From: an uncultured Saprospiraceae bacterium
Lineage (GTDB): Bacteria > Bacteroidota > Bacteroidia > Chitinophagales > Saprospiraceae
Reading direction: 5' to 3'
Length of the DNA stretch: 64,000 nt
Assembly (NCBI GenBank): GCA_937872385.1
Contig: CALMSO010000027.1
Span: 186,001-250,000, forward strand
Both the position numbers and the translations under genes were made by a program. Each line of letters starts with the position of its first letter. Within the stretch, counting starts at the first letter, position 1. Shown here piece by piece: positions 50,530-62,384 of this stretch. The notes beneath the pieces were generated by a model, which saw only the letters and a list, made by a program, of their open reading frames with translations, did no database searches and was not told the origin of the DNA.

Positions 50530-51711
50530 TTAATTCTTCTCGTCATAGGGAATGTAGTTTTGCCACCGCCAAGGTGTAAAAGTGTCGCCAATTGAATAAG
50601 CTAATAATTCTTTAAAAATGCTTTCTCCATTGTCGTTATTTGTCATAATTAGGATGGCAATTTTTTTGTCAGGAAAACAAATTGAATAATGTCCCCAGCC
50701 ATCATCGTGTCCTTCTTTGAAAAATGCTCTGCCATAAGGCGTTTTGAAAACCCCAACTCCTAAGCCATAACCTAATTGTATATTGTCATTATCTGTACTA
50801 TCAATTTTTGCAAGTGGCCCGAATTGGCTTCTTGATTTAATGCTGACTTGCGTATTTGTCATGGTTTTAAAACTTTTTTTTGAAAGCCCATTGTTACGTA
50901 TTAAAGCTGTATAAAATTTTGTGAAGTCCTCCAGCGTTGTACTCATAGAACCTCCTGCACTTGCTTCTTTCCATTTCATTAGTTCGTATGGTTCGCCTTT
51001 TTCGTTGTGTCCATAACAAATATTTGCGTCAAAACGGGGTTGCCAAACTTGGCTTGTATTTGTCATACCCAGAGGTTTAAAAACGCTTTCTTGTGAAATA
51101 GTTTCATAGTCTTTTCCTGTTACCTGTTCAATGACAAATTGCAGAAGGTAAAGTCCTTCGCCTGAATAGCTGTAACGAGTGCCCGGGTCAAACTTAAATT
51201 TTAGTTTCTTGTCTGCTTCAAACCAACGCCAATTGGGAAAACCTGTTGTATGTGTTAGGCACATACGAGCTGTTATTTTTTTATAGCGGTCATCATTTTT
51301 TAAGTCTTCATAACCTCTGTTCCAACCATTTATTTTATAATCTGGCAAAGGTTTACTTAAATATTCTACAAGTGGTTTGTCAAGGTCAATAACCTTTTCT
51401 TGAACAAATTGCATTGCAATGTAGGCAAACACCATTTTGGCAAAAGACGCTCCATACAGAACGGATGATTGTTGAAAGGGTATATTCTTATGCACATGCG
51501 CAAGTCCATAAGTTTTACTAAATATTGGTTTGTTGTGGTTAAAAACTGAAATAGCGATACCCGAAACATTTGCAGTTTTCATTAGGTGCTCAATTTTTGC
51601 ATCTAAACTGTCGGCTGAAATTTTAGTACCGTCAATTCTTTTGATGGTCTGTCCAAAAGTTAGCGTTGTAAGTGAACCCCAAATTGTCGCAAGTAAGATG
51701 TAATGATTCAT
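50530..51711 (-). CDS. Serine hydrolase, class C beta-lactamase fold (cassette gene)
   Basis: 393 residues with a signal peptide (1-20). The SxxK motif is GASFAK with Ser89 and Lys92; the second motif reads YSYSG near 180-184, where the asparagine of the usual YxN is replaced by glycine; a GHDDGWGH segment near 330 could supply the third element. This family includes beta-lactamases, D-aminopeptidases and esterases; resistance should not be assumed. It is the last gene of array 1: its cassette begins at 51750 with TTAGTTGCCA, but no complementary TGGCAACTAA box is found after the gene, so its attC-like site has been lost or replaced. Confidence 0.82.
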   Translation of the reverse strand: MNHYILLATIWGSLTTLTFGQTIKRIDGTKISADSLDAKIEHLMKTANVSGIAISVFNHNKPIFSKTYGLAHVHKNIPFQQSSVLYGASFAKMVFAYIAMQFVQEKVIDLDKPLVEYLSKPLPDYKINGWNRGYEDLKNDDRYKKITARMCLTHTTGFPNWRWFEADKKLKFKFDPGTRYSYSGEGLYLLQFVIEQVTGKDYETISQESVFKPLGMTNTSQVWQPRFDANICYGHNEKGEPYELMKWKEASAGGSMSTTLEDFTKFYTALIRNNGLSKKSFKTMTNTQVSIKSRSQFGPLAKIDSTDNDNIQLGYGLGVGVFKTPYGRAFFKEGHDDGWGHYSICFPDKKIAILIMTNNDNGESIFKELLAYSIGDTFTPWRWQNYIPYDEKN

Positions 51712-51750
51712 AATTGTTTACTATCTGGTGAGGTCTTTAATGGCAACTAA

Positions 51751-51881
51751 CGTTTTGGCGGCTTGGCGCAGTGGCGGATTTCGGAGCACAAAATTGTCAA
51801 TCCAGCACTAAAGTTAAATTGAAAACTAAACTAACACTTTAAACTGTACCCAGCAATTTTGCATATATTTTGTTAGCGGCA
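51751..51881 (-). repeat. attC-like site after the four-helix protein gene (131 bp)
   Basis: On the minus strand it starts TGCCGCTAAC (51881-51872) and ends CCAAGCCGCCAAAACG with crossover before TTAGTTGCC. The outer box is a perfect 10-base complement of the start of its own cassette (GTTAGCGGCA at 52455-52446). The half next to the gene has lost the TTTGGC stem seen in the other sites. Confidence 0.65.
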
Positions 51882-51892
51882 TAGTCAATTTC

Positions 51893-52381
51893 TTATGTCG
51901 AAGGTGTTGTCAAACTATTAGTATGCTTTACTACTTTATATAGCATTATAAAATTCGTTATTGCCAATAATATCATCGGTATCTTTCTATAAATTAAATC
52001 AGTTGATATAAGCCGTTCAATTAATTCCAGAGAAAATCTTTTGTCAAGTTCGATTTGAATAGGTATTTGAATTGTTATAGTTGAAACCACGGCTATCAAC
52101 TTAAAAAGTAGTGCTAGTCCAACCAACCACTTGCTTATTATCATCGGTCGAAACCAAAACAATAAAATCAGTGGGATGAAGGTTAAGAAAGTGGGAACAA
52201 CAAAGAAGGGAATGATGAGCGAGCTGTCAACTTGATGAAATTTAGGAAATTCATTTGCGCCTACCCAACGCCATGTGGGGTAACCCACAAAGGAATTTAC
52301 CATACTCCCACCGAAAGCATAGAAAGCTAATAGAATATAGACCGCGAATACAATACTTGAAATCTTGTTGTTATTTGTCAT
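51893..52381 (-). CDS. Small four-helix membrane protein (cassette gene)
   Basis: 162 residues with four hydrophobic helices (about 8-30, 56-78, 82-105, 133-152). The loop GSMVNSFVGYPTWRWVGANE and an EFPKFHQVDS segment between helices 1 and 2 look conserved and recall the DUF1772 (anthrone oxygenase-like) pattern, but I would not assign a reaction. The TAA stop is 11 bp before the attC-like box. The cassette start lies 73 bp upstream of the ATG. Confidence 0.65.
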   Translation of the reverse strand: MTNNNKISSIVFAVYILLAFYAFGGSMVNSFVGYPTWRWVGANEFPKFHQVDSSLIIPFFVVPTFLTFIPLILLFWFRPMIISKWLVGLALLFKLIAVVSTITIQIPIQIELDKRFSLELIERLISTDLIYRKIPMILLAITNFIMLYKVVKHTNSLTTPST

Positions 52382-52454
52382 TTTATAATTTTTTAATTTT
52401 AATCATGCTATGTATAATTCTTTGTCTCAGTGCTAACGTCTGACTTGCCGCTAA

Positions 52455-52584
52455 CGTTTTCGGGCTTTGCGTTCGGGCGGGGCTTTTCAGCACTACCGTC
52501 ATTTGGAAAACTGCACTTCAATTATACGAAAAAACTGTTAACCGAAGCACTGCACCCGCTATTACGCCAAACTACTGTTGTGCG
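52455..52584 (-). repeat. attC-like site after the DUF4303 gene (130 bp)
   Basis: On the minus strand CGCACAACAG (from 52584) ends with CCCGAAAACG and crossover before TTAGCGGCA. Inner arms are TAGTTTGGCG and CGCAAAGCCCG. Its outer box matches the start of its own cassette (TTATGCGG) only partly (two differences in nine), unlike the perfect boxes of the other cassettes. A second CG|TTAGCA lies 17 bp further. Confidence 0.6.
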
Positions 52585-52590
52585 TTCGGC

Positions 52591-53142
52591 TTATTGACCC
52601 CAAGTTTTCATCCAAGTTAAGTATTCAGTTTTATATTCATTTTCGTTAAGTCGCTCAACTATTTTTTTTAAGTCTTTCGCCTCAAATTCATAGTCAGAAA
52701 CAGTAAAAATTAGAAAAATATCTTTACCTACAATATTTTTGAAGAAATTCTCATTTTTTAATTTTTCTAAAACGTTAATGCAAGTTTCATAAAGTTCGCT
52801 TTGAAACTTTAAACACCATTCTTCATTATATTCGTCATTTTCTAGAAATTCATTTTCGTCAAGCTCTGCTCTTAATTGCGTACAGATGTCATCAAACTCA
52901 TTGTCTGCGCCTTCCGCTTCGTATTTCCATGCAGCGGGTTCAAACTTGTGATATATCAAATCATTTTGGTCAACAGTTGTCAGATGTTTTAAAGTGTTTG
53001 TTGAAGGACATACAGTCATTGCATCTCCATCACTATAAAGTGCAAATCCATAAATTTCATCAGCACCATATTTTTCAAACATTTCGATAAATGCTTTTTT
53101 GGTTGCGTCTTCTATATTTTGTCTTAAATTTTCAAAATTCAT
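52591..53142 (-). CDS. DUF4303 family protein (cassette gene)
   Basis: 183 residues from the ATG at 53142; upstream in-frame codons run into the attC-like site and are excluded. The N-terminal helix KKAFIEMFEKYGADEIYGFALYSD is typical of DUF4303, an acidic cytoplasmic family sometimes seen in polymorphic toxin immunity or SMI1-like contexts. No signal or membrane segment; very acidic in 95-125. No toxin gene is next to it. Function unknown. Confidence 0.7.
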   Translation of the reverse strand: MNFENLRQNIEDATKKAFIEMFEKYGADEIYGFALYSDGDAMTVCPSTNTLKHLTTVDQNDLIYHKFEPAAWKYEAEGADNEFDDICTQLRAELDENEFLENDEYNEEWCLKFQSELYETCINVLEKLKNENFFKNIVGKDIFLIFTVSDYEFEAKDLKKIVERLNENEYKTEYLTWMKTWGQ

Positions 53143-53201
53143 ATTATAATTTTTTATATTTTTTTTGTCAATCGTTGCAGTTAGAGAAAGCTGCCGCATA
53201 A

Positions 53202-53329
53202 CGGTTTGGCGCTTGGCGAAGGTGGCGATTTCGAAGCACTAAACTGTCAACCTGCACTGAAGCTGAATAGGAGCACAAACCTTCAATTAACCACGTCACC
53301 GCCACTTGCGGCAAACGGCTGTTATAGCC
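53202..53329 (-). repeat. attC-like site after the DUF1648 gene (128 bp)
   Basis: On the minus strand it starts GGCTATAACAG (53329) and ends GCCAAGCGCCAAACCG with crossover before TTATGCGG. Inner arms CCGTTTGCCGC and GCGCCAAAC pair, followed by GTGGCGGTGAC against a CGCCACC block. The outer box GGCTATAAC is the exact complement of G|TTATAGCC at 53892-53884, where this cassette begins. Confidence 0.72.
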
Positions 53330-53346
53330 TGTGCTTTGTATTCTCG

Positions 53347-53847
53347 TCATTTTTTTGGTTTGAGTGTTTTGATTAGGTAATAAGTCATTGGAATAAAAAT
53401 CAACCCCATTGTCAAGGGTAAAAACCAAATACCAAGTCCACCCGCTTCTCCGTTTGCATTTTGAATTGTCTTGAAAGCAATTAGTCCGAAAATAACAACA
53501 ATGTTAAGTTTCAAATATCTAATCATCCTTGTGGCATTTGTATATTGTCTTAATGCGTTGTCTTTTGTTATGTTGGTCGGATAATTAAAAATGTGAGGAA
53601 ACTTATTTAAGATTGTCAATCCAATGAATAGAACTGTTGCGATTAGAGGTAAAGTCAAAATAGTTGCCTTTCTACCAAATCCGTCTGCTTGCCCTGATCC
53701 ATTATAATGTATCGGAATAGTGTCAGGTAAGTTTGCATAGTTTGTAATTGTCAAACCCCAAAGAGAAATAATTAAAAGCCAACCAATAATTTCAAATATT
53801 TTGTCGGCTGTGCTAAGTTCTAATTTTATTTTTGGTCTTTCTGTCAT
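53347..53847 (-). CDS. DUF1648 domain membrane protein (cassette gene)
   Basis: 166 residues with four hydrophobic helices. The extracytoplasmic loop LPDTIPIHYNGSGQADGFGRK after helix 1 is the DUF1648 signature found in SdpI-like immunity proteins and in many unassigned membrane proteins. The rest (GLGIWFLPLTMGLIFIPMTYYLIK) forms helices 3 and 4. A role in immunity against a peptide toxin is possible only by analogy. The ATG lies 44 bp after the cassette start; the stop is 18 bp before the attC-like box. Confidence 0.75.
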   Translation of the reverse strand: MTERPKIKLELSTADKIFEIIGWLLIISLWGLTITNYANLPDTIPIHYNGSGQADGFGRKATILTLPLIATVLFIGLTILNKFPHIFNYPTNITKDNALRQYTNATRMIRYLKLNIVVIFGLIAFKTIQNANGEAGGLGIWFLPLTMGLIFIPMTYYLIKTLKPKK

Positions 53848-53891
53848 TGTCGTTTAAATTTCTCGTTGTCGTCTTTTAGCATTGGCTATAA

Positions 53892-54071
53892 CGGCAGCAG
53901 GGCTGACGCAGTTTTTGAAAAATTCCGCGCAGCGGAAAAAATTTTTCAAAAATTGACGTCAGTCCGGTGTTGTACGATGGTGCCGAGCGTAGCGAGGCGC
54001 CGAGTGCAGCACCGGCGTCAGCCCTGCTGCCGTTGTTCAAGATGCCGAGCGCAGCGAGGTATCTTGAACAA
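53892..54071 (-). mobile_element. Gene-less mini-cassette, 180 bp
   Basis: On the minus strand the element begins TTGTTCAAGAT directly after the crossover G of the preceding site and after 17 bases shows ATCTTGAACAAC, its exact complement, so start and outer box are only 40 bp apart and no gene fits between them. The attC-like part (54043-53892) has arms CGGCAGCAGGGCTGACGC and GCGTCAGCCCTGCTGCCG (18 bp, perfect) and two inner hairpins. A 104 bp section (53975-54078) is identical to 60346-60449. Confidence 0.65.
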
Positions 54072-54200
54072 CGTTTTGCCGCTTGGCGAAGGGCGGGTTT
54101 TCTAGCACTGAACTTCGTAGAAAGCACTAAACTTGGATTTAGCACTTCACTTTCAAAGAAGCACAAAACCCCGCCTTTTGCCAAACGGCTGTTAGCAGAA
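54072..54200 (-). repeat. attC-like site after the HD gene (129 bp)
   Basis: On the minus strand it starts TTCTGCTAACAG (54200) and ends CCAAGCGGCAAAACG with crossover before TTGTTCAAG. Long arms CCGTTTGGCAAAAGGCGGGG and AAACCCGCCCTTCGCCAAG pair; the loop has four copies of GTGCT. The outer box is a perfect 10-base complement of GTTAGCAGAA at 54797-54788, where this cassette begins. Confidence 0.75.
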
Positions 54201-54215
54201 GTGCTTATTTCTCAG

Positions 54216-54758
54216 TTAATTGATGTACTTGTCATATTCATTAATTTTTTTTAATAATCTATTTTCCAAAAATTCGTTTCCTCCTTTTAGTAATTCTAAA
54301 ATTATTTTCGCCTCTTTTTTATATTCTGTTTTTTTTGAAATATCCCAATGTTGCGGTGGTTTTTGTAAGTTTGTTATTCTGTCAGCCAATTTTACTGCCC
54401 AAACTTCTTTGCGTAATTCTTTTGTTCTATTTAAACTATCTAACATTTTTTCGCTTTTTGGCAATAAGTCATTTTTTGTTAATGCTAAAACTCCTTTTGC
54501 AATTTCACTTCCAAATTCTGATTCTAATTCTTCAAAAGTTGTATTTGTGTCTTCCAAAGTGTCGTGCAATAATGCAACTTGGATAGCAAATTCGATGTTA
54601 AAATTCTTGGTATTTTGAGATGCAATTAATATTTCCATTGCAACATTACTTAAGTGTACAACGTATGGAATTTCTGTTCCAGGTATTGTTTGTCCTTTCT
54701 GTAAATGTTTTAAAGTGGCAAAAATTATTGTCTTTTGATATATAGTTTGTATGTCCAT
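54216..54758 (-). CDS. HD-domain protein, small alarmone hydrolase (SpoT-HD/MESH1)-like (cassette gene)
   Basis: 180 residues, the length of stand-alone (p)ppGpp hydrolases. The metal and catalytic motifs of the RelA/SpoT hydrolase domain are in order: PYVVHLSNVA (His35), VALLHDTLEDT (His65, Asp66, Glu69, Asp70), FGSEIAKGVLALTK and VKLADRITNLQ. No synthetase, TGS or ACT domain is present. It would degrade ppGpp or a related nucleotide in the cytoplasm; this is inferred from motifs. First cassette of array 1: its ATG is 38 bp after the crossover point, and its stop is 15 bp before the attC-like site. Confidence 0.8.
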   Translation of the reverse strand: MDIQTIYQKTIIFATLKHLQKGQTIPGTEIPYVVHLSNVAMEILIASQNTKNFNIEFAIQVALLHDTLEDTNTTFEELESEFGSEIAKGVLALTKNDLLPKSEKMLDSLNRTKELRKEVWAVKLADRITNLQKPPQHWDISKKTEYKKEAKIILELLKGGNEFLENRLLKKINEYDKYIN

Positions 54759-54801
54759 TTTATTTTCAGGGGTTGCTCAAAAAGCATTTCTGCTAACATT
54801 T

Positions 54802-54827
54802 GTATAAACGCCATATGGCGTTTATAC
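54802..54827. promoter_or_regulatory. 26 bp perfect palindrome between recombinase stub and first cassette
   Basis: GTATAAACGCCAT and ATGGCGTTTATAC abut with no spacer. It begins 3 bp after the stub's stop codon and ends 4 bp before the crossover G at 54797, so it occupies the place where an integron attI site is expected. It could equally be a terminator-less operator; no function is shown. Confidence 0.55.
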
Positions 54828-54830
54828 ACC

Positions 54831-55043
54831 TTATGTATCGGGCTTCAATTTAGTATTTTTTTCTTTTGGTGGCAAGTCCTGGGCGGGTATTTTTATAGAC
54901 AAAAACTCCAAAGGGCTTCGCAGTTGTGCTTTTTTGTGTTGGGTTATGTGGGTATAGATTTCGGTGGTCTTGCTCGAGTTGTGCCCCAGTAGGTGCTGAA
55001 TGTAGCGCAGGTCTGTACCGCCAATAGCGCTAAAAACGGACAC
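54831..55043 (-). pseudogene. Tyrosine recombinase, C-terminal stub (array 1)
   Basis: Open frame of 70 codons from a GTG; similarity to integrases begins at GGTDLRYIQHLLGH (from 55022) and includes the late His and the nucleophile Tyr in TTEIYTHIT, then LRSPLEFLSIK. The LRSPL ending resembles integron integrases, whose C terminus has RSPLD in the same place. The Arg-Lys-His-Arg part of the active site and the whole N-terminal domain are missing, so it cannot be active. It reads in the same direction as the cassettes, with its stop codon beside them. Confidence 0.75.
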
Positions 55044-56701: not shown

Positions 56702-57016
56702 GTTTTTTGTTTTGTTTGATTATTTGATAGTGGGCCAAAACGGTTGTTTTTTTGTTCAGATTTCGCAAATCTCAAAGATTTACAAAATCATATCCACCCA
56801 TTTGACCCAGCACCAATTATTTTAAATGTTTATGCCAAAATGATGCAGGCTATAATTTTAAATCATGTAATGCTTTGCAAAAGGAAAGTAAATAAACCGT
56901 TAATTACCCAACAAGTTGTTCGCTATTATACCTTTACAAAATTATAAAAATTTTACACCCCCCTCATCCCCTATTCCCCTATTCCCCTATCCCCCTATTC
57001 CCCCATCAACCCCTCC
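56702..57016. other. 315 bp intergenic region with CCCCTATT repeats
   Basis: Tract 56957-57003 consists of about five CCCCTATTC-like units just after the dehydrogenase gene (minus strand). The remainder is AT-rich without a gene. Confidence 0.6.
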
Positions 57017-60142: not shown

Positions 60143-60345
60143 GTTTTACAAGAGTCTTAGGAGTTTTTTCAGGCAATTGAATTTTTTCACTGACAATTAT
60201 AGGAAAAATACTTGAAGGTGGAAAAAAGATAGGGGGCTTGTTTTTGAAATTTGGTGCGCAAGTACTATTTTACATGTATGTGCCGTAGCCGATTAGAAGC
60301 ACTTTCCTGTCCATTCAGCACAAAGCTTCGTAAAAGCACAGCCCT
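60143..60345. other. Region upstream of glgE, with remnant of a cassette loop
   Basis: The part at 60290-60345, read on the minus strand, has three GTGCT copies as found in the loops of the attC-like sites, so array 2 probably once continued here. It abuts the mini-cassette copy. A TATCTTTT sequence (minus strand, near 60230) could be the -7 box for glgE. Confidence 0.45.
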
Positions 60346-60449
60346 CGATGGTGCCGAGCGTAGCGAGGCGCCGAGTGCAGCACCGGCGTCAGCCCTGCTG
60401 CCGTTGTTCAAGATGCCGAGCGCAGCGAGGTATCTTGAACAACGTTTTG
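60346..60449 (-). repeat. 104 bp direct repeat, second copy of 53975-54078
   Basis: Identical base by base to 53975-54078 in the same orientation; comprises the start of the gene-less mini-cassette and the last bases of the attC-like site before it. The two copies are about 6.4 kb apart. Confidence 0.85.
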
Positions 60450-60571
60450 GCGCTTGGCGCAGTGGCGGATTTCGGAGCACAAAACTGTTCATACACCATA
60501 AAAGTTGATGCGAGGCATAATGTTCAATTAACCACGTCACTCGCTATTGAGCCAAACGTCTGTTATGTAGC
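60443..60571 (-). repeat. attC-like site after the AlbA_2 gene (129 bp)
   Basis: On the minus strand it starts GCTACATAACAG and ends CCAAGCGCCAAAACG, crossover before TTGTTCAAG. Inner arms are GACGTTTGGCTC and GCGCCAAAA. The TAA of the outer box is the stop codon of the gene, as often in integron cassettes. Confidence 0.72.
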
Positions 60572-61951
60572 GTTTTTCTTTTTCCAAGCGATAATTTTTG
60601 TTCCATTAATGCTGTAGATAGGTTCAATTAGATTCTTGTTTCTTAAATCGTAGAAATGTCTTTTCATTACGTTTTCAGATTTTATACCTGTTAAAAGACG
60701 AGCTTGTTTGTTTTTGATGCTAGGATTAGAATTTAGAAAATTCATTATTTGTTCTTCAGGTGATGCTAATGAAGTGTGTGCAATAATTACTTTAATATAA
60801 TTTCCATCTTCAATTATTTTTGGTGCTTTAAGTCTAAATTCTTCCATTCTTTGAAATGCAGTGTTTAAGCCTTCTCCCATATCTTTATTTGCAGGATTTT
60901 TGTATTTGTTTAAAACACGAACAATTTTTGAATTTCTAGAAAATCTCGCATCCAATATGTTTTCTATCGTAACATAACCTGGCAATCTGCCGGGGCTTTT
61001 TATTTCTATTCTATTGTTAAATACTAAAACTTGAATGTCGTCTGAAATTGAATAATCCCTATGAATCACGGCATTTACAAGAATTTCCCAAATTGTTTCA
61101 GGTGGATATTTGACTCTTTCAAGTCCACTTTCCCCCATAATTTGTACCGACTCCATTATTTCTGTAATTCTTGATGACGCTTGTTTTATTTGTTCATTTA
61201 GGCATCCTTCAATCGAATATTGTTCTTTTAAATGTATTCTTTCTGGGATCTCTTCTGATGTATCATACCTAGTTATTTTTATACCACAGCGCTTTGGCAT
61301 TAGTGGAGTAGGATTATCACTAAATAATAAAATTCCTGCTGTTCTTGGGTCATAGGACTTTCTATCAACTAAATTTTGGTTTACTGTGAAGTCAATAGGG
61401 TCTGATTGAGGAGAGTAATCTTTTAGAAATTTGATAATTTCCTTTGATTCAAATATATCTTCTGCTAAAGCTGAATTAATGATTGTATCTTCAAACGAAG
61501 ATTCACCTTTAGCATAAGAAAGTGCTTGAATTTGTGCAGGGTCTTTAAGTGGGATTGATTGAGATGATTTTCTTACATATACTGTGTTATTTGCCGTTTT
61601 ATGTACAGACTCACTTTTCTCAATCGTAATTCTCAAGGAATATTTATTATTGTCGTCTTGAAGAAATTCGTAACTATGAGGAATTGTTGGAGTTAGTTCA
61701 GTTAAGTTTTGAAACACAAAGTTAAAAGATTCCATATCTTCAACTCCTTGCCACCTTTTAAATGGGTCATTTTCTTCTTTTTTATCTTTTATACCGATAA
61801 TAAACTCTCCACCATCAGCATTTGCAAATGCTACAGCAATTTTTTGAATTTTGTCGCCTTTTATTTCAAAGGCTTTGTTGTCATAAAAATGACTTTCTTC
61901 TCGTTGTGCTAGGTCAATTATTTCTGGTGTGGATACTTTTCTTATTTTCAT
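60563..61951 (-). CDS. AlbA_2/Schlafen-type putative regulator with ATPase-like C-terminal domain (cassette gene)
   Basis: 462 residues, no signal peptide. The N-terminal AlbA_2 (Schlafen) domain covers about 10-150, with REESHFYDNKAFEI, AFANADGGEFIIGIKD and VYVRKSSQS. A HATPase_c_4-like domain follows at about 270-395 (PPETIWEILVNAVIHRDYS, GRLPGYVTIEN, NKDMGEGLNTAFQRM), then a winged-helix-like end. These proteins are annotated as transcriptional regulators or ATP-dependent helicase-like; some relatives take part in phage defence. The actual role here is unknown. The gene ends exactly in the attC-like box and starts 28 bp after the crossover point, so it is the cargo of array 2. Confidence 0.82.
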   Translation of the reverse strand: MKIRKVSTPEIIDLAQREESHFYDNKAFEIKGDKIQKIAVAFANADGGEFIIGIKDKKEENDPFKRWQGVEDMESFNFVFQNLTELTPTIPHSYEFLQDDNNKYSLRITIEKSESVHKTANNTVYVRKSSQSIPLKDPAQIQALSYAKGESSFEDTIINSALAEDIFESKEIIKFLKDYSPQSDPIDFTVNQNLVDRKSYDPRTAGILLFSDNPTPLMPKRCGIKITRYDTSEEIPERIHLKEQYSIEGCLNEQIKQASSRITEIMESVQIMGESGLERVKYPPETIWEILVNAVIHRDYSISDDIQVLVFNNRIEIKSPGRLPGYVTIENILDARFSRNSKIVRVLNKYKNPANKDMGEGLNTAFQRMEEFRLKAPKIIEDGNYIKVIIAHTSLASPEEQIMNFLNSNPSIKNKQARLLTGIKSENVMKRHFYDLRNKNLIEPIYSINGTKIIAWKKKNAT

Positions 61952-61980
61952 TTTTCGGTTATTTTAAAATGCTACATAAC

Positions 61981-62012
61981 GGCAGCAGGGCTGACGCAAC
62001 TGCGTTGCGTGG
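61981..62012 (-). promoter_or_regulatory. attI-like junction between recombinase stub and AlbA_2 cassette
   Basis: Thirty-two bases between the stub's stop codon and the crossover G. It has an inverted repeat ACGCAAC/GTTGCGT (arms 61994-62000 and 62004-62010) and shares a 23 bp stretch (61976-61998) with 53888-53910, the end of the mini-cassette site. Confidence 0.5.
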
Positions 62013-62150
62013 TTACCCCATATCTTCTAAGTTGTCCAAGGGGCTTTTCAGCCGCTTTTTGGCATAATCCGTAATCTGGAATGTATATTTCGGTGGTCTT
62101 GGTGGAATGCTACCCCAGTAGCTTCTGAATGTAGCGTAGGTCGTTGCGTT
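62013..62150 (-). pseudogene. Tyrosine recombinase, C-terminal stub with stop and frameshift (array 2)
   Basis: On the minus strand DLRYIQKLLG is followed by an in-frame TAG, then HSTKTTEIY, and after a frameshift ITDYAKKRLKSPLDNLEDMG. The KSPLDNL end is that of Bacteroidota integrases and resembles the RSPL end of the stub in array 1. The preserved part starts at almost the same residue (before DLRYIQ) as the other stub. Confidence 0.72.
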
Positions 62151-62384
62151 TATTGGGGTTTGTATTCCTTTCAATACCGCTTCCAAATGTACAGGCATTC
62201 CGCAGAACAAGCAAGTGTATTTCGCTCTTTTTTAGAGCGGTACGTATTTTTTGGTAGGTGTATTTGCGCGCAAGGCGGCGGCGGGGGAGGTATCTGGTTA
62301 TCTGGTGATTCGGTTATCTGGTGAGCGATAACTCCGGGGTACTGCAATAGCTATTTATACCATTTAAGATTGGCGAAGTCCGAT
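62151..62384. other. Region between stub 2 and DUF1697 gene, with short repeats
   Basis: Holds a CGCTCT-TTTTT-AGAGCG hairpin (62223-62239), two direct copies of GGTTATCTGGTGA (62296-62308, 62312-62324) and a partial copy of the ATCCGATTCA repeat family at 62357-62388. No gene. Confidence 0.55.

Follow-up and report, generated by a model that had tools for sequence, protein, structure and literature searches.

We report that two short gene arrays in the window, the whole 64,000-nt stretch analysed here (C27:186001-250000, part of a 4.85 Mb draft genome), are most probably decayed "reverse" integrons of a Bacteroidota type, each made up of an integrase without the IntI extra domain (hereafter domain-less), an attI site and cassettes. 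Array 2, read on the minus strand from 62.2 to 60.3 kb, is a short integron-type array in which a tyrosine-recombinase relic is followed by an attI remnant, a single SLFN_AlbA_2 cassette and a 41-nt ORF-less mini-cassette. The preliminary description, which gave the AlbA_2 gene unsigned coordinates, had already seen a second attC/cassette array around it, and the boundaries, a 10-nt match and Pfam (SLFN_AlbA_2) bear this out; the gene and its array lie on the minus strand, and the gene is one cassette of a relic integron array. The features of array 2 are:

61994 to 62191, minus strand: integrase relic of platform B, ..KRY(stop)KEYKPQ fused by an internal deletion to DLRYIQKLLG..KKRLKSPLDNLEDMG(stop), with internal stops (by comparison with G001:C231).
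61981 to 62015, minus strand: what is left of the platform B attI (CCACGCAACGCAGTTGCGTCAGCCCTGCTGCC), where the 3' half of the mini-cassette attC has taken the place of the right half (compared with the platform B attI of C57 and G001).
60444 to 61980, minus strand: gene cassette 1, from GTTATGTAGC up to the base before the next GTT, with 10-nt complementarity between its own start and its own end.
60563 to 61951, minus strand: cassette cargo, a 462-aa protein with SLFN_AlbA_2 and HATPase_c_4 (RecG C-terminal like) domains (Pfam E 4.8e-13 and 5.9e-16).
60437 to 60571, minus strand: attC of the AlbA_2 cassette, R'' GCTACATAAC, L'' AGACGTTTGGC .. L' GCCAAGCGCCAAAAC, R' GTTGTTC (from the fold and homologous sites elsewhere in the genome).
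60403 to 60443, minus strand: core of the ORF-less mini-cassette, GTTGTTCAAGATACCTCGCTGCGCTCGGCATCTTGAACAAC (7 genome copies, most at attI or attC junctions).
60283 to 60402, minus strand: truncated mini-cassette attC, the end of array 2 (aligned with the intact copy at 54.03-53.89 kb).

In integrons, the end box of a cassette is complementary to the start of that same cassette, and the arrays of the window show this pattern. The AlbA_2 cassette starts with GTTATGTAGC at 61980 (minus strand), 29 bp upstream of the ATG, and its end box GCTACATAAC at 60571-60562 includes the TAA stop, as had been noted before, and pairs with the cassette's own start over 10 nt. The bottom strand of this attC folds more stably than the top strand (-19.7 versus -13.5, and -15.6 versus -12 in a second calculation), with weak z values of -1.8 and -0.1. 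The cargo protein also matched PADLOC models for pAgo (E 4.6e-19) and for SIR2-pAgo-associated proteins, probably because its domains are common to those models.

Array 1 (55.0-50.5 kb) follows the same design, with its own relic and its own attI:

54834 to 55019, minus strand: integrase 3'-end relic of platform A (GTDLRYIQHLLGHNSSKTTEIYTHIT..RSPLEFL..KPDT, then a stop; compared with the C40 region).
54798 to 54833, minus strand: attI of platform A, GTGTATAAACGCCATATGGCGTTTATACAAAT before and GTTAGCAG after the crossover, with 11-nt inverted arms 3 nt from the crossover.
54073 to 54797, minus strand: HD_4-domain gene cassette with attC (gene 54216-54758; 10-nt complementarity).
53893 to 54072, minus strand: mini-cassette with a complete palindromic attC (from copy comparison and fold).
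53203 to 53892, minus strand: DUF1648 gene cassette (gene 53347-53847; 9-nt complementarity and Pfam).
52456 to 53202, minus strand: DUF4303 gene cassette (gene 52591-53199; Pfam; R'' with one mismatch).
51752 to 52455, minus strand: cassette coding for a 162-aa protein outside any known family (gene 51893-52381; 10-nt complementarity).
50530 to 51751, minus strand: serine hydrolase (beta-lactamase fold) gene after the last cassette start (Pfam).

No closing attC was recognised for the serine hydrolase unit. Among the five ORF cassettes with a findable end, four show a match of 9-10 nt between own start and own end, placed precisely at the predicted boundaries, and the fifth (DUF4303) has one mismatch; a single 9-nt match alone is not rare, with 22 per strand in the window against 7-15 in shuffles. 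The HD_4 attC is the strongest hairpin among the ORF cassettes here, but its top strand is slightly more stable.

Both arrays are headed by the 3' end of a tyrosine-recombinase gene (62191-61994 and 55019-54834), a relic that also occurs at two further places and of which the preliminary description made no mention. The platform B relic is 85% identical at the DNA level, in two blocks, to a longer fragment in the sister species (G001:C231), and the 58 nt preceding the platform A relic show 91% identity to sequence upstream of the integrase gene on C40, which is intact. The array 2 relic and a copy at C27:265.1 kb (array 3) have one internal deletion in common, while a copy on C57 has a different deletion with the same left end. 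At all three places (61994-62191; L005, C27:265 kb; L009, C57), the left breakpoint falls after the KEYKPQ codons, and two of them have both breakpoints in common; the pattern looks like the outcome of copying of the deleted platform itself. A promoter reading of the conserved stretch ahead of the relics (TTG-N20-TACATTTG) was dropped because the stretch is integrase coding sequence (LYLKRYLKEYKPQ).

The site beside the integrase remnant has the properties of an attI, namely an attI-like inverted repeat and, on one and the same attI, varying first cassettes. The array 1 attI (TGTATAAACGCCATATGGCGTTTATACAAAT before and GTTAGCAG after the crossover) recurs at C27:265 kb with one base changed and with a different first cassette (contig positions 241 versus 265 kb). 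The 41-nt mini-cassette is present at seven places in the genome; its junctions with two different attI (C57, C96) and with four different attC lie precisely at the core TT. Such exact junctions, together with one attI carrying different first cassettes, are the trace expected of site-specific insertion.

The relics belong to a family of domain-less integrases. With the C40 integrase as query, relatives were found in 35 of 61 genomes, and those with record names are mostly from Bacteroidota (Lewinella, Flavobacteriaceae and others). Spacing between the KGxKDR and HxLRH motifs is 58-59 residues in the Bacteroidota family versus 100 in IntI, and in an alignment the canonical IntI of one genome (G029) is about 40 residues longer between these motifs than each of 16 others. 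The family thus lacks the extra domain and does not exceed the cut-off of the integron integrase model TIGR02249, which only G029 among 150 genomes of the order surpassed; some 40 more of these genomes gave incomplete, two-piece matches with the extra-domain stretch unaligned. In a tree with XerC/D as outgroup, the IntI clade (100/100) excludes the family integrases. One group with moderate support (92/92) holds the array-bearing Bacteroidota enzymes and some that have no arrays, together with one Spirochaetota enzyme, the two rAID recombinases and the G001 fragment. This sister-species fragment, from the integrase lineage of array 2, has no extra domain and groups with array-bearing members (98/96).

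No intact platform A or platform B integrase was found in this genome. Its only full family integrase is C40 (L055), whose subclade is mostly without arrays; C40 was accordingly set aside as a possible but weak candidate for the active integrase of the window arrays. Behind it, at a distance of 325 nt, is a methyltransferase cassette with a 10-nt match. Many Acinetobacter plasmids (matches H10-H20) carry a relative of the integrase catalytic region, with 52% identity over 62% of the query, and one record bears the name TnpF.

In the principal alternative, a canonical IntI, active earlier or acting in trans, built the arrays, which would then be ordinary CALINs, and the neighbouring domain-less recombinases would be bystanders. 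The features of the attC sites are canonical and one genome of the order does possess a canonical IntI (G029), yet that is one genome in 150, whereas in many families a domain-less integrase stands immediately before an array with an attI-like site, and relics of this integrase family head the window's own arrays; we therefore consider this explanation unlikely. The G029 enzyme (L128, G029:C40) has the extra domain, and a search for an array upstream of it yielded no more than one 12-nt link.

The association of domain-less integrases with cassettes extends across the phylum. A purely structural attC detector had no power, so the cassette rule, own-start/own-end complementarity, was used instead, and cassette chains were scored behind integrases at 80 named loci from GTDB genomes. 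Against shuffled sequence (Markov or dinucleotide), a null that leaves repeats out of account, the chain score exceeded the 95th percentile in 25 of 64 Bacteroidota members (3 expected) versus 1 of 18 others. A first link of at least 9 nt was found behind 24 of the 60 family integrases with at least 1 kb downstream (20 with 10 nt), versus 1 of 12 XerC/D (none with 10 nt). Cassettes behind the integrase number seven in Seonamhaeicola aphaedonensis, five in a Flavobacteriaceae isolate, four in Winogradskyella ursingii, eight in Rufibacter (some links weak), seven in a Sphingobacteriales genome and eight in G005, from the window's own family; in tandem chains of 4-8 cassettes the spacers measure 117-119 nt or about 50 nt. 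Many family integrases show no array, in part because contigs end.

These integrases often run directly into an attI-like inverted repeat followed by tandem cassettes with hairpin attC. In several families the inverted arms of the attI-like sites surround a 6-9 nt centre and end 3-6 nt before G/TT. Cassette boundaries have a GTTRRRY-type core, reading GTTA or GTTG with RRRY relaxed, and an R'' complementary to their own R'. The 56 candidate attC, some of them likely false, are as a set imperfect hairpins favouring the bottom strand, which is the more stable in 45 and the less stable in 10 (45 of 55 informative); the median fold z is -2.6, and 37 of 56 lie below -2. Individual sites in the window are mixed, with z about 0 for the DUF1648, DUF4303 and 52-kb sites. 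Rfam gave no matching family, and no two strains were seen to differ by a single cassette. The evidence is comparative throughout, and at the level of sequence it establishes cassette boundaries, attC and attI architecture, relics and association across the phylum.

The preliminary description suggests a link between the two arrays through a moved block running from the isomerase to glgE, and it is true that the arrays lie 6 kb apart and have a mini-cassette start in common, GTTGTTCAAGATACC at 60443 being identical to that at 54072, as was claimed. The comparisons nevertheless do not support the link. Part of the block is conserved in relatives, the isomerase standing beside the dehydrogenase and/or DUF1761, with glgE not adjacent, in G014, G015, G017, G019, G020 and G021, and in the sister species G001 glgE is located elsewhere with no array beside it. 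The platforms also differ, with an attI of TATAAACGCC-ATAT-GGCGTTTATA at array 1 and of ACGCAAC..GTTGCGT at array 2, and a mini-cassette found at seven places does not tie two arrays together by being present in both. A single moved block is thus highly improbable, and the gene order in relatives favours separate platforms beside older genes. Between DUF1761 and the dehydrogenase gene (56720-56828) lies a dispersed repeat of about 100 nt, with more than 30 copies in G001 at 79-98% identity. Least probable of all is that the repeats are REP/palindromic or other dispersed elements instead of recombination sites: the mini-cassette is palindromic and multi-copy and this genus has other dispersed repeats, yet across different contexts the boundaries coincide with the core site, and start boxes are complemented by their own end boxes around genes that differ.

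In the intact state of such a reverse integron, a domain-less tyrosine recombinase gene would be followed directly behind its stop codon by attI and then by cassettes in the same orientation. A circular cassette, with its attC folded from the bottom strand, would be joined by the integrase at G/TT either to attI or to a further attC, whereby each cassette would arrive with the start box that its own end box complements. Internal deletions have reduced the integrase genes of this locus to their 3' end, with attI still in place, and the cassettes would now be stranded, or movable only by an enzyme acting in trans. Catalysis by this family, the single-strand mechanism and the direction of insertion are what we infer from the arrangement of genes and sites.

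A plasmid search led to Bacteroides ovatus and Parabacteroides distasonis plasmids on which a recombinase is followed by SMI1/KNR4, Imm26, PoNi and Tdi1 immunity genes, an arrangement that fits the published description of rAID clusters (PMC12247911). The rAID recombinase, with 58-59 residues in the diagnostic gap, is a member of the domain-less family. Applied with a TTA core, the cassette rule gave tandem chains of 11 and 8 units with own-start/own-end complementarity, scoring 34.5 and 30.3 bits against maxima of 25.3 and 16.3 bits in 100 shuffles; single links are short (7-11 nt), and the spacers, mostly 37-42 nt, are hairpin-shaped. A pair search with an ATTA core and fixed first base had no success because R'' keeps C opposite A. 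A Chryseobacterium plasmid scored 23 bits, and the NCBI name of its enzyme, "site-specific tyrosine recombinase/integron integrase", suggests that annotation already hints at a relation to integrons. While rAID itself is known, its interpretation as an integron is a proposal of the present analysis.

Most family members have an extra N-terminal domain of about 80 residues, predicted as beta-beta-alpha-beta-beta-alpha-beta (pLDDT 84). Pfam matched HARP (E 0.0013) in 2 of 21 members and DUF5710 (7.5e-5) in 6; Foldseek returned XPB with probability 0.93 (E 0.15) and HARP 4o66 with 0.35 (E 0.78), and a profile match to 4o66 had E 1.2. In sequence and fold the domain may thus faintly resemble HARP, XPB-DRD and DUF5710-like domains, which we take as a lead only, and we hypothesize that it could read the folded attC in place of the IntI insert. 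The domain is not universal: array-bearing L068, L115, L071 and L160 gave no or weak match, and its profile found no match in the rAID enzymes. That Bacteroidota have an integron superfamily of their own, with integrases devoid of the hairpin-recognition insert of IntI, an N-terminal domain that may do its job and is similar to domains for structure-specific DNA binding (HARP of SMARCAL1, XPB DRD, DUF5710), and the rAID arrays of human gut bacteria as such integrons, is to our mind an evenly balanced proposition.

Hardly any integrons were recovered in Bacteroidetes by surveys requiring the extra domain (PMC9024848). If cassette movement is the work of domain-less integrases, integrons would be common in Bacteroidota and folded attC would have to be recognised in another way; the acquisition of immunity genes by rAID arrays, called unclear in PMC12247911, would become a question of attC x attI recombination. 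The literature covered, mostly without subscription papers, contained no account in which domain-less integrases drive cassette arrays or in which rAID is read as an integron.

Integrons and CALINs are the nearest known systems, and the arrays described here share with them mostly one gene per cassette, a GTTRRRY-type core, an R'' complementary to its own R', imperfect hairpin attC with the more stable bottom strand, ORF-less cassettes and an attI beside the integrase. They differ in that the integrase is without the IntI extra domain, points toward the array and has an N-terminal extra domain; passages of PMC9668308 and PMC8138268 treat the IntI extra domain as defining and necessary for integron recombination. 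An integrase orientation opposite to the usual is also found in the reverse integrons of Spirochaetota (PMC9668308), compared here by description only, whose enzymes are however reported as IntI. In the available part of PMC8138268, members of the "Integron-like" tyrosine recombinase subgroup without the extra domain are not tied to cassette arrays. The rAID clusters of gut Bacteroidales (PMC12247911) likewise have a tyrosine recombinase from this family ahead of a run of small genes in the same orientation, with conserved intergenic motifs, but their core is (A)TTA versus GTT, their attC measure 37-42 nt and their cargo consists of immunity genes.
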